The notes under the pieces were generated by a model that saw nothing but the letters and a program-made list of their open reading frames with translations, did no database searches and was not told the DNA's origin. The position numbers and the translations under genes are program-made. A stretch of DNA of 36,916 nucleotides. Source: Opitutia bacterium. Lineage in GTDB: Bacteria; Verrucomicrobiota; Verrucomicrobiia; Opitutales; Seribacteraceae. This document shows positions 8,368-14,145 of this stretch, piece after piece; position 1 is the first letter of the stretch, and each line of letters starts with the position of its first letter. Location of the stretch: positions 1 to 36,916 of the forward strand of contig PBSV01000066.1 of NCBI GenBank assembly GCA_002726435.1, given 5' to 3'.

Positions 8368-10077
8368 ATGTATAATCTCACGCGAATCATTCTGCTTTGC
8401 TTAGGCATGCAATTTCAATCTTTCGGCAGCCCCGACGACCGTATACCTTTTTACGAAGATTACCTGAAAAATGGTGACCTCGATGGATTTTTGAAAGTTG
8501 CGGAAGAATTTCTGGTTAAAAATCCAGATAGGGTTGAAGCTCCAAGACTTGCTTTTGATTTCCTCCTTGTAGCGAAGGCGGCACAGGACCTCGAAGCGAT
8601 TGACCTGGCAACCAGTTCCCTGCTCTTTCAATTTTCCAACAGCCTCCCCACTCTGCATCTGCTGAGTTCCTTTGAAAAAGGATCCCCCGCATTAGTGAAG
8701 TTACTCAAAAACAAAGTCGATAAAAGTGACCTAAAAACTAATAAATTTGCGGTGAATTTTTGTAGGGCGATTGTTCTAATTGCTCGCATTCAGGGGCCTG
8801 ATTTACTGAGGGACCCAGGCCTGCGTCTGCGGGCATATTTAATGGCAAAGAAAGCGGGAGTTGAATCAATCATCGAAAGCACGCAAAGTGCCCTTGCCAA
8901 AGGATCAACGGGAAACAATTCGACTGACAAGATTTTTTCCATTGTTTTATCCGATGCATCTGCGATGGAAAAAATTCCTCAGTTGTCTGATCTTTCGGGA
9001 AACGAGGTCAATTTTTGTCTATCCTACTATCTTTCGGAATTATCCGAGAAAGAAAGGGAATCTGAAAATATTAAAGCCATCCGTATCAAAAATGCTCTTT
9101 TTGGAGGCGAACGGAATTCTCGTTTTGCCAAGGAATTGATTAATTCACTACCCGCTAAATCGAGATCCAGTCCAAAATACCAAGTTCTACTCGCCCATGC
9201 CAAGTATATGGACGGTCAAAAAGATGAATGTATTCTTGGACTCAAGAAAATTTCGAAAAATTCTGATTGGGGAAAAACAGCCCGTCTCTATGCAGATGGG
9301 CTTGAATTTTCGGAGAATCGTAAAAAAATGCTTCTTGAAGCCCTTGGAAAAGCGATCGATAAGCTTGAGAAAGAAGGGGACACCTTTTTCATTGCTGCGA
9401 AATGGAAAAAAAAATCCGGTTCGGAAAAAACCAAGAATTTCAACCTCTATCTTGGAATCTCCAACTTTCTAAAACAATTTGAAATACAATTACATGCTGA
9501 CAAGAAACTTAAATTCTCTTACCGAACGAATAAAGATGAATCGGCCTTATTTCTGGATTCAGCCAATAAAATATTAGCCTTTGAAACTCCAGGGGCTATC
9601 CCCACGCCCAAAGTTTCTATTTTACGGGACGCAGAGTCAGGCTCCTTTAAATATAATTTTAACCTAAATTTCTCACCTTCTTTTGAGAGCTTACTTACAG
9701 AAGCCAAATCAATTTTACAAAATGCTTACATTGGAACGCCAACCGGTCGTGAAGTTCTGCTGACACACCTGCTTAGTCAAAAAGCAATCTGGCTTGGGGT
9801 TCCCACGCCAACACCGGAGGGAACATCGTTCCCGGTTCTGTCTCTCCAAGCCGACCGGTCAGAGCCCTTAAAATCCTCTCTGGTCTTTGATTTAACCGGC
9901 AATTTATCTTCTTTTCAAATCGACGGATTCGAAGTTACAAGGTTAAAAAAAGGCGATCAAAATCTTCTCTCCGAGCTACCCAAGTGGCCAAAATTAGAAA
10001 TTGAAACGGAAGAAAAATTCGACTTCAAACTTCTGATGAGCGTTCTCAGTGAAGCCACGACATTTGGAAATAAATAA
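8368..10077 (+). CDS. Secreted hypothetical protein, 569 aa
   Basis: Long ORF with N-terminal hydrophobic signal ('MYNLTRIILLCLGMQFQSFGS'); no family recognised. Confidence 0.85.
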   Translation: MYNLTRIILLCLGMQFQSFGSPDDRIPFYEDYLKNGDLDGFLKVAEEFLVKNPDRVEAPRLAFDFLLVAKAAQDLEAIDLATSSLLFQFSNSLPTLHLLSSFEKGSPALVKLLKNKVDKSDLKTNKFAVNFCRAIVLIARIQGPDLLRDPGLRLRAYLMAKKAGVESIIESTQSALAKGSTGNNSTDKIFSIVLSDASAMEKIPQLSDLSGNEVNFCLSYYLSELSEKERESENIKAIRIKNALFGGERNSRFAKELINSLPAKSRSSPKYQVLLAHAKYMDGQKDECILGLKKISKNSDWGKTARLYADGLEFSENRKKMLLEALGKAIDKLEKEGDTFFIAAKWKKKSGSEKTKNFNLYLGISNFLKQFEIQLHADKKLKFSYRTNKDESALFLDSANKILAFETPGAIPTPKVSILRDAESGSFKYNFNLNFSPSFESLLTEAKSILQNAYIGTPTGREVLLTHLLSQKAIWLGVPTPTPEGTSFPVLSLQADRSEPLKSSLVFDLTGNLSSFQIDGFEVTRLKKGDQNLLSELPKWPKLEIETEEKFDFKLLMSVLSEATTFGNK

Positions 10078-11031: not shown

Positions 11032-11069
11032 AACCTGGACTTTCTTTTAGTGGGTTGAATAAAAAAATT

Positions 11070-11903
11070 ATGAATTCAAAGAAAGCAGAGAGCATCAGAA
11101 AAGAACTGGAAGAAAATTCAGGAATGATACTATTAAAAAATTTCTCTCAAGAATCCGTCCCAACTGATCCAATTTCCTGGTTCTTGGAATTCTCCAGGCA
11201 TATCGGAACTCCGGTTTCGCAAAGTGAAAAAGGAGAATTTATTTTAAGCATCCGCAACCTGGGCTTTGAAATCGACGACCCGCGAACACGTGGTCCAAAC
11301 ACCAATCGAAAATTGGGATTTCATACCGATCGATGCGATGTCATCGGATTTCTTTGTCTGCAGGAAGCAAAAAAAGGCGGAGAGAATCAAGTCGTAAAAA
11401 GTCAGGAAGTGGAGGCAATCATTCGCGTCGAGCGTCCGGACTTACATCAGACTTTATGCCTTCCATTCCCCTACAAAAGACATGTCGTGGACCAAGGCAA
11501 TCCACTGCCCTTTTGTATGCAACCTGTTTTTTCATGGAAAAAGAACTACTTCGCTTGTTCCTACTTAAGGGTTCTGATAGATCGTGCAGACGCCGATCCG
11601 GAATGCCCGAAACTTTCAGCCATCCAGAAGGAAGCGATTAATTTTTTTGATGAAGTATGCGGACGAAAGGAAATTCAGGATCGCTTTACCCTTTCTCGGG
11701 GGGATCTCCTCTTTCTTAATAACTGGACCACTCTGCACCGGCGAACTTCGTTTGAAGACTGGGAGGAGCCAGGACGAAAGCGCCACCTTCTTCGGGTCTG
11801 GCTTTCGATGCCTAATAGCCGTCCACTGGATGAGTCCTTTCGGCCAAACTTTGGAGCGGTCGAAGCGGGAGTTCTGCGTGGAGGAATGCCTCCAAGTAAA
11901 TGA
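11070..11903 (+). CDS. TauD/TfdA family Fe(II)/2-oxoglutarate-dependent dioxygenase
   Basis: 'LGFHTDRCDVIGFLCLQEAKKGGENQVV' (HxD) and 'LFLNNWTTLHRRTSFED' (distal His). ATG at 11070 preferred over the TTG at 11055. Confidence 0.88.
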   Translation: MNSKKAESIRKELEENSGMILLKNFSQESVPTDPISWFLEFSRHIGTPVSQSEKGEFILSIRNLGFEIDDPRTRGPNTNRKLGFHTDRCDVIGFLCLQEAKKGGENQVVKSQEVEAIIRVERPDLHQTLCLPFPYKRHVVDQGNPLPFCMQPVFSWKKNYFACSYLRVLIDRADADPECPKLSAIQKEAINFFDEVCGRKEIQDRFTLSRGDLLFLNNWTTLHRRTSFEDWEEPGRKRHLLRVWLSMPNSRPLDESFRPNFGAVEAGVLRGGMPPSK

Positions 11904-11975
11904 TTCAAAAAAAGGAATGTTCACCCTCACATCAAGCTTGCCTAGAATAGTAGTTGAGTGTGGTTTGGTGTGGTA

Positions 11976-13580
11976 ATGAAGCACCCTGTTTTATGCATTC
12001 CCCTACTTCTTTTATTACCTTTCTTAGTATTCAGTAAGAAGGAAATTGACTTTATTCCCGATCCATTTGACCCGACTGAATCAGATACTTTCAACCTTTT
12101 GGTTTGGGGAGGTGGATATTCCCCAAGCGGAAATCAACTCTCACTCGAAAGCAACATTCAATACTTTCGTAAAATACGTCCCATTCTCGGCCTTGAAAAT
12201 TCTTCCATGTGGACACTTTTTGCAGATGGTAAGGACCTCGCCAGAGACCTTCAATTCAACGACTCAAATCAACCAATCCCGCTCATCAATGAAATACTCT
12301 CCGAGCTTCTGGGTACCAGTGAAGATATAGGTAACCGCTACCGCAACAATCGACTTAACCCAGATGATAACTCCTCCAATGCCTCACTTTCGAATTGGTT
12401 GGGCAAAAGTACAAATCAGATAGGTCCAAGGACCAACCTTATTTACTTCACCGGTCATGGTGGTAAAGGAACTAAGAAACATCCCGAAAACACCCACGCA
12501 TGCCTCTGGAATAATCAAATCATCAAGGTATCCGAGCTTACTTCCAAACTCGATGAATTACCAGAAGACCAAGCCTGTATCATGGTAATGGTGCAATGTT
12601 ACAGCGGTGGTTTTGCCAACTTTATTTTTAATGACGGTAATTTCAGTAAGGGCCCCTCCGGTCATGCAAGAGCAGGTTTTTTTGCCACTACCTTCGACCG
12701 GGTTGCCGCTGGTTGTACTCCCGACATTCAAGAAGGAGACTACAAGGAATACAGCACACATTTCTGGGAAGCCCTCTGTGGTAAAAGTCGAACGGGGAAG
12801 AGCATTTTACGGCCCGACTACAATGGCAACGGGCGTACTTCATTGTCCGAGGCTCACGCCTATGTGGTAATCCACTCAGACACCATTGACCTGCCAATCA
12901 AGACCTCGGAAGTCTTCCTTCGAAACCTTTACCCCACTTCTCGCAAGGTGGAAAAAGAAAATAGGAATAAGAGTTTGGAATCCATGGAATATGGTCGATT
13001 GCTTGAGGTCGGCTCCTCTGAAAATCGTGCAGTCTTTATTCAACTCTCGAATCAAATCGGAATAGAAGAGGAATTCCCCTATACCCAAACCAAAAAGAAA
13101 ATCTCGGGTTGGAAATCTCAAAGAGAAAAAGTTGTCAAAGAGAAGAAGATACATTCAGACCGTCTTAAGAAATCAAAAGATTTGCTAAAAAAACGCATCA
13201 AAAAGGCCTATCCCGAATTACAAAACCCTTACCATCCTCTTGTCTTAAGCATTCTTAACGGCGAAGAAAAAGAATCATTAATCAGCTTGGTCAACCAAGA
13301 ATCGGAATGGAGAAATTATATAAGCACAAAGAAAAAAGTATCTTTAAGCGAAGCTCGTAGATTCGCTTTGGAAAAGAAAGAGGTGAAAGCAATGCGTTTG
13401 CTGAATTGTATGGAAACTATTTTCCTCGAAGATCAACTCTTCAGGGGTAAAGGAGTCGATTCAACCGAAGAAAATATAGATTCCGTGGAAACAGAAAAAA
13501 GGAACGAAGACAACATTGAGCTCTTACCCGCATATTACCGGGTTTTGGGGTTGGAAAATTCTTACCTTCCTGGTTCTTAA
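11976..13580 (+). CDS. Secreted clan-CD (C13/C14-like) cysteine peptidase with EF-hand-like Ca-binding loop and charged coiled-coil C-terminus
   Basis: Signal peptide 'MKHPVLCIPLLLLLPFLVFS'; His motif 'IYFTGHGGKG' (His codon 12456-12458); Cys motif 'CIMVMVQCYSGGF' (Cys codon 12597-12599); loop 'DYNGNGRTSLSE' at 12816-12851. Confidence 0.8.
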   Translation: MKHPVLCIPLLLLLPFLVFSKKEIDFIPDPFDPTESDTFNLLVWGGGYSPSGNQLSLESNIQYFRKIRPILGLENSSMWTLFADGKDLARDLQFNDSNQPIPLINEILSELLGTSEDIGNRYRNNRLNPDDNSSNASLSNWLGKSTNQIGPRTNLIYFTGHGGKGTKKHPENTHACLWNNQIIKVSELTSKLDELPEDQACIMVMVQCYSGGFANFIFNDGNFSKGPSGHARAGFFATTFDRVAAGCTPDIQEGDYKEYSTHFWEALCGKSRTGKSILRPDYNGNGRTSLSEAHAYVVIHSDTIDLPIKTSEVFLRNLYPTSRKVEKENRNKSLESMEYGRLLEVGSSENRAVFIQLSNQIGIEEEFPYTQTKKKISGWKSQREKVVKEKKIHSDRLKKSKDLLKKRIKKAYPELQNPYHPLVLSILNGEEKESLISLVNQESEWRNYISTKKKVSLSEARRFALEKKEVKAMRLLNCMETIFLEDQLFRGKGVDSTEENIDSVETEKRNEDNIELLPAYYRVLGLENSYLPGS

Positions 13581-13593
13581 TTCAGGCCGATAC

Positions 13594-14145
13594 CTAAAAA
13601 CCTTTGCCTCTCAAGGCAGAATCAAGCTGTTTCTGAAATTCCGCGACATCTTCGTCCGACGGTTTGTATCCCTCATCTCCCCCTAAAAGTCCGAGCCTGC
13701 CGAACTGATCAAGGGTCCATTTTTTTTGCTGTCCATCTGAAAAAGTTACTGATCCACTTGCCATTGCACCCGGCGGGGTGACCGGATCGACTTCCACTGA
13801 TACTCCACCCTCTCCGACAAGTGGACTCTCGGGGGTAACTTCTCCCGTAACTCCCGCATTTGTATCCTGTGCAGAGTCATCTGCTTGCTTTGCTACTGGC
13901 TCTTCTTCATCCACTAAAGTCAGGTCTAAATCATCAACCAAAAAACGTACATCCATGTAAGTCATTACGATTCCAAAATCATCATCGATTTTCTTCTGGA
14001 CTTCCGATAAGCCCATGCCATCAGCCACCCACTTGGAAATTTCTCGCTTTTGCAACTCATCAGGTTGTCCCGGAACCGAATTGCCTTGGTTGACATCCTC
14101 GTTCGAACTTTCATTCGTAGAATCTGTTGAATCATTACTTATCAT
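13594..14145 (-). CDS. Hypothetical acidic protein downstream of dnaA
   Basis: 183 aa ORF, starts 'MISNDSTDSTNESSNEDVNQGN'; collinear with dnaA; no family recognised. Confidence 0.75.
   Translation of the reverse strand: MISNDSTDSTNESSNEDVNQGNSVPGQPDELQKREISKWVADGMGLSEVQKKIDDDFGIVMTYMDVRFLVDDLDLTLVDEEEPVAKQADDSAQDTNAGVTGEVTPESPLVGEGGVSVEVDPVTPPGAMASGSVTFSDGQQKKWTLDQFGRLGLLGGDEGYKPSDEDVAEFQKQLDSALRGKGF

Follow-up and report, generated by a model that had tools for sequence, protein, structure and literature searches.

A probable clan CD cysteine peptidase of a divergent C13-like branch, with a candidate calcium loop, in Opitutia and other bacteria

Cysteine peptidases of family C13 have been studied mostly in eukaryotes, in which legumain is switched on by acid; the clan CD fold is already known in bacteria. 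The described systems closest to the gene reported here are legumain (MEROPS C13, PF01650), the GPI transamidase subunit PIGK/GPI8 (also C13), the bacterial and archaeal orthocaspases and metacaspases (C14B), and other C13-like proteins of Verrucomicrobiota (among them L071, L075, and L076). Calcium dependence occurs in several clan CD families, and the S1 residues of legumain are Arg44, His45, Ser216, and Asp231 (PMC4357240). EF-hand motifs have been reported in seven archaeal orthocaspases (PMC6426788). What is new here is a divergent bacterial branch of this known enzyme class.

The window analyzed is a stretch of 36,916 nucleotides, contig C66 of a 1.6 Mb genome that is 62% complete, in which the gene is single-copy. 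Like legumain, the encoded protein has a predicted caspase-hemoglobinase fold with an HG...C dyad after strands 3 and 4, an export signal, a helical C-terminal domain, and a cysteine at the Cys247 position. At about 12% identity, it differs from legumain in carrying a DxDxDG loop, in lacking recognizable S1 residues, and in having a tail of predicted long helices, whereas the legumain tail is a compact five-helix LSAM domain. PIGK/GPI8 is the best Foldseek match (E 2.6e-6, about 13% identity), but the window protein has no visible membrane segment or complex partners. The orthocaspases and metacaspases have the fold and dyad in common with it, and EF-hand motifs in the archaeal cases cited above, but their sequence match is weaker and few C14 proteins of this phylum have the loop. 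The other Verrucomicrobiota proteins match PF01650 and carry, 51-82 residues past the Cys, a DxNxDG-type loop, but are different and often much longer chains; of these, only L071 and L075 (as L101 and L102) match the profile of the window family at E <= 1e-4. We consider it likely that the window protein is an exported clan CD cysteine peptidase of a divergent, C13-like (legumain/GPI8) branch, with a probable one-calcium loop and a probable regulatory or targeting tail. Such a conserved bacterial branch, with its calcium-type loop and different tail, would make a simple, soluble system in which to study legumain/GPI8-type regulation, and it gives unannotated genes of marine Verrucomicrobia and Planctomycetes a testable function.

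Reading frame and putative export signal

The gene is a single stop-free frame, and all sequence features quoted in the initial annotation were found at their positions in the translation. The ATG at 11976 is a likelier start than the in-frame GTG upstream at 11958.

11976..13580, + strand: predicted exported C13-like clan CD cysteine peptidase of 534 aa (single ORF; matches in 24/134 genomes; clan CD fold)
11976..12035, + strand: putative N-terminal signal peptide, residues 1-20, with an approximate cleavage site (hydrophobic N-terminus, also in orthologs; predicted helix 7-18)

The N-terminus is hydrophobic (MKHPVLCIPLLLLLPFLVFS) in the window protein and in its orthologs, as expected from the signal peptide first proposed for it. 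A lipoprotein signal was considered as a family-wide trait and rejected, since a Cys occupies the probable cleavage site in about nine Opitutia members and is absent there from the window protein and most others. The sequences recorded with such a Cys are L002, L010, L011, L014, L015, L020, L004, L006, and L100 (for example, LTSC in L100 and LTAC in L010). These sequences suggest that L100 and several Opitutia orthologs are lipoproteins and that the window protein is not.

Predicted catalytic domain and placement within clan CD

The features of the catalytic region are as follows.

12078..12935, + strand: predicted catalytic caspase-hemoglobinase domain, residues 35-320 (AlphaFold2 and Foldseek)
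12456..12458, + strand: predicted catalytic His161 (YFTGHGG), 38/38 homologs, directly after predicted strand 3, aligned with the legumain catalytic His
12597..12599, + strand: predicted catalytic Cys208 (MVQCYSGGF), 38/38, directly after predicted strand 4, aligned with the legumain catalytic Cys
12714..12716, + strand: second invariant Cys247 (AAGCTPD), 38/38, aligned with a legumain Cys (YAC) in the profile alignment

His161 lies in IYFTGHGGKG and Cys208, 47 residues on, in VMVQCYSGGF. The initial annotation had read these as a His-Gly...Cys dyad and had named loss of the residues across orthologs as grounds for doubting it; H161, G162, and C208 are invariant in all 38 homologs compared. 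In the full-length model, the preceding strands are residues 152-159 and 199-206, which is the clan CD arrangement. From these strand positions and the legumain match, we infer that His161 and Cys208 would lie within contact distance.

The caspase-hemoglobinase fold expected of such a protein is predicted with AlphaFold2 for the catalytic domain alone at pLDDT 88.1 and pTM 0.87 (38 alignment rows), and for the full-length protein at pLDDT 78.9 and pTM 0.81 (21 rows). Searched against the PDB with Foldseek, the catalytic domain has 53 matches at E <= 0.001, and the best 50 of the 53 are all clan CD proteins. PIGK leads, followed by legumain (E 3.7e-6), with peptide asparaginyl ligases, metacaspases, GSU0716, MALT1, and caspases among further matches. 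Clan CD proteins also lead the matches of the full-length model, at a weak best E of 3.2e-3. Identity to the solved structures is 8-15% and TM-scores are about 0.4-0.6, and the relationship is therefore remote. Among PDB sequences, Phmmer and the full-length profile return only coiled-coil noise, and the catalytic-domain profile returns weak but sensible clan CD matches. Taken together, the case for the catalytic assignment of the window protein is strong.

The structural ranking also bears on whether the protein is instead a transpeptidase, which would join exported proteins to an acceptor in the manner of GPI8/PIGK or the plant asparaginyl ligases. The GPI transamidase PIGK is the best single structural match, the peptide asparaginyl ligases match too, the protein is putatively exported, and the Cys-His chemistry is common to both reactions. 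We nevertheless regard this alternative as very improbable: legumain gives the same E-values, the fold cannot tell ligases from hydrolases, the sequence beyond the signal peptide shows no apparent transmembrane helix, and no partner gene conserved across phyla was found in the neighborhoods of the 38 loci.

The window protein falls nearer to C13 than to C14, which narrows the C13/C14-like clan CD class first assigned to it. This holds for both the fold ranking and the profile matches of the family. Against PF01650 (C13), the window protein itself scores E 0.006 and 16.6 bits, below the cut-off of 22.8, which is exceeded by L057 (31.2 bits) and L068 (23.7 bits) when members are scored singly. 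It has no NCBIfam match above cut-off. At E <= 1, PF01650 matches 35 of the 38 members (best 2.1e-7). In hhalign, the family alignment (A2) matches human legumain, a sequence first verified against the PDB, at a probability of 66% and E 5.6e-5, and the His and Cys residues of the two align with each other (20 shuffled controls gave a probability of at most 0.7%). The family is thus best described as a divergent C13-like clan CD peptidase, and not as an accepted C13 member.

A C14-type peptidase (caspase, orthocaspase, or metacaspase) in which the acidic loop described below takes the role of the calcium site of metacaspases would fit the weak matches to PF00656 in 11 of the 38 members (best 9.1e-4) and to the EACC1-associated caspase model in 15 (best 6.5e-5, weaker than PF01650). 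Metacaspases, which are calcium-activated (PMC4357240), are also present among the Foldseek matches. This reading is unlikely in our view. PF01650 matches more members and more strongly, and legumain and GPI8 rank above the C14 structures. The window protein has no PF00656 match, and L068 reaches 17.3 bits against a PF00656 cut-off of 21.4. Moreover, the residue two before the Cys is V, A, or S, whereas it is Asp in most caspase-like proteins scored here, and of 24 C14 proteins from the phylum only one has the strict loop, a protein that also matches PF01650.

Within the C13-like placement, an Asn-specific S1 pocket was not recognized. In a low-confidence stretch of the alignment, legumain Arg44 and His45 correspond to Gly52 and Asn53, Ser216 and Asp231 correspond to gaps, and E258 (E or D in all members) lies beside the Asp231 position. 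Asn specificity is therefore not to be assumed.

The acidic loop and the C-terminal tail

Two further features follow the dyad.

12816..12851, + strand: EF-hand-type candidate calcium loop DYNGNGRTSLSE, residues 281-292 (strict pattern 33/38, relaxed 38/38; high model confidence; exiting helix 290-300)
12948..13577, + strand: predicted C-terminal helical domain, residues 325-534 (from the model; conserved residues in Opitutia; kept in Planctomycetes)

The loop begins 73 residues after Cys208. The strict pattern D.[DN].[DN]G..[ST]..E is present in 33 of the 38 homologs, the window protein included, and a relaxed form in all of them, with Asp281 and Glu292 invariant. A strict loop was found anywhere in shuffled homologs only 13 times in 76,000, and judged from these sequences the conservation is not due to chance. 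The likeness to an EF-hand claimed at the outset stands in part. The 12-residue loop and its exiting helix 290-300 are there, but the preceding helix ends at residue 268, 12 residues earlier, and the single loop is unpaired. As modeled, the element is a calcium-loop-plus-helix and not a full EF-hand. Placed on legumain, it falls at low confidence on an acidic stretch before the last helix.

Calcium binding by residues 281-292 is likely on the sequence pattern, and calcium activation of the window protein is speculative. A purely structural loop, or one that binds another cation, without regulating the enzyme is a possibility of some weight, though not the one we favor. It would suit a single unpaired loop with a distant preceding helix, as well as the three members in which the Gly at loop position 6 gives way to Q, K, or H. 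However, every one of the 38 members, which come from three phyla, has Asp, Asn, or Glu at loop positions 1, 3, 5, and 12, and other C13-like proteins carry the same loop at similar spacing.

Of the 19 C13-like proteins of the phylum that were scored, 5 have the loop no more than 130 residues downstream of the Cys, and it is absent elsewhere in the same ORFs (13,066 aa); the single C14 carrier is the same gene as one of these five. This scoring leaves aside 10 C13-like and 3 C14 loci, and the Cys may have been mis-picked in a few. Given this recurrence, the notion that the loop is unique to the family of the window protein was rejected. The Verrucomicrobiota C13-like proteins with a DxNxDG-type loop after the catalytic Cys are L071, L075, L076, L082, and L085, pointing to a wider calcium-loop group at the sequence level.

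The Lys/Glu-rich helical C-terminus of about 200 aa, noted from the sequence alone, is borne out by the full-length model, which predicts it to be mostly helical with long helices at 368-411, 441-490, and 503-527. A conserved [YW]PExxNPxHP turn lies between the first two, and P413, E414, N417, H420, R474, and E480 are invariant in Opitutia. The tail is kept in Planctomycetes and mostly missing in the two cyanobacterial proteins. The weak PDB matches of this model include coiled-coil proteins, and the helices probably pack as a coiled coil. In legumain, the C-terminal helical domain blocks the active site (PMC4357240). The tail of the window protein may serve in autoinhibition or in anchoring, and the two roles have equal standing.

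For the exported C13-like peptidase that we favor, we infer that it acts as a protease, binds calcium, and is regulated by its tail. His161 would activate Cys208, which would attack the peptide bond. The acidic loop would probably bind one calcium ion and hold in place the N-terminus of helix 290-300 as well as the substrate-groove edge; outside the cytoplasm, the enzyme would then depend on calcium for stability or activity. The tail, from about residue 340 to 534, would probably be regulatory or targeting, a part played in prolegumain by a different helical C-terminal domain. A bolder extension, which we think improbable, is a class of calcium-gated C13-like cell-envelope enzymes. In these, external calcium would lock the loop and free the active site from the tail, such that surface proteins would be cleaved (or transpeptidated) only after export.

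Distribution and gene neighborhood

The gene is present in 24 of the 134 genomes searched, the window's own counted. The named relatives are metagenome-assembled and single-cell genomes of Opitutia (Verrucomicrobiota), and judged by isolate names their sources look marine. A scan of one genome per species, which depends on conserved short patterns and misses more distant members, added Planctomycetota (Rhodopirellula, Fuerstiella, Phycisphaeraceae, and others) and two cyanobacteria. G346 is the sole further clear member in a broad sample of the phylum, and the gene is therefore patchy. In the tree, cyanobacterial, planctomycete, and Opitutia rows separate broadly by phylum, with several open forks. 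On these sequences, the distribution is compatible with old vertical descent and loss. The members make up a divergent, largely unannotated enzyme family of Verrucomicrobia, Planctomycetes, and a few cyanobacteria.

Directly upstream of the peptidase gene, on the same strand and across a gap of 72 bases, lies a TauD-type dioxygenase gene (11055-11903). Downstream and convergent are a gene for a 183-aa protein and then dnaA. This order is kept in about 20 of the 38 loci compared, all Opitutia, and was not seen in a more distant Opitutia lineage, Planctomycetes, or cyanobacteria among the same loci. The neighbors were considered as functional partners and rejected, since the order is confined to the window's own family-level lineage; it is therefore best taken as gene order of the lineage and is given no functional weight. 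No homologs were found in a search of plasmids.

Several neighboring genes were also recorded. The 183-aa acidic protein (13594-14145, - strand), beside dnaA, has no match in Pfam or NCBIfam, and 20 further loci of Opitutia conserve it (cluster c1). A protein of 569 aa (8368-10077, + strand) has an apparent signal peptide and matches no family of Pfam or NCBIfam above cut-off; it is conserved close to these same genes at six further Opitutia loci (cluster c9). In ten Opitutia loci (e.g., L032:64-4785, - strand), the dioxygenase-peptidase pair adjoins a large metalloprotease of the Reprolysin type, which carries beta-helix and cadherin domains and is absent from the corresponding spot in the window.
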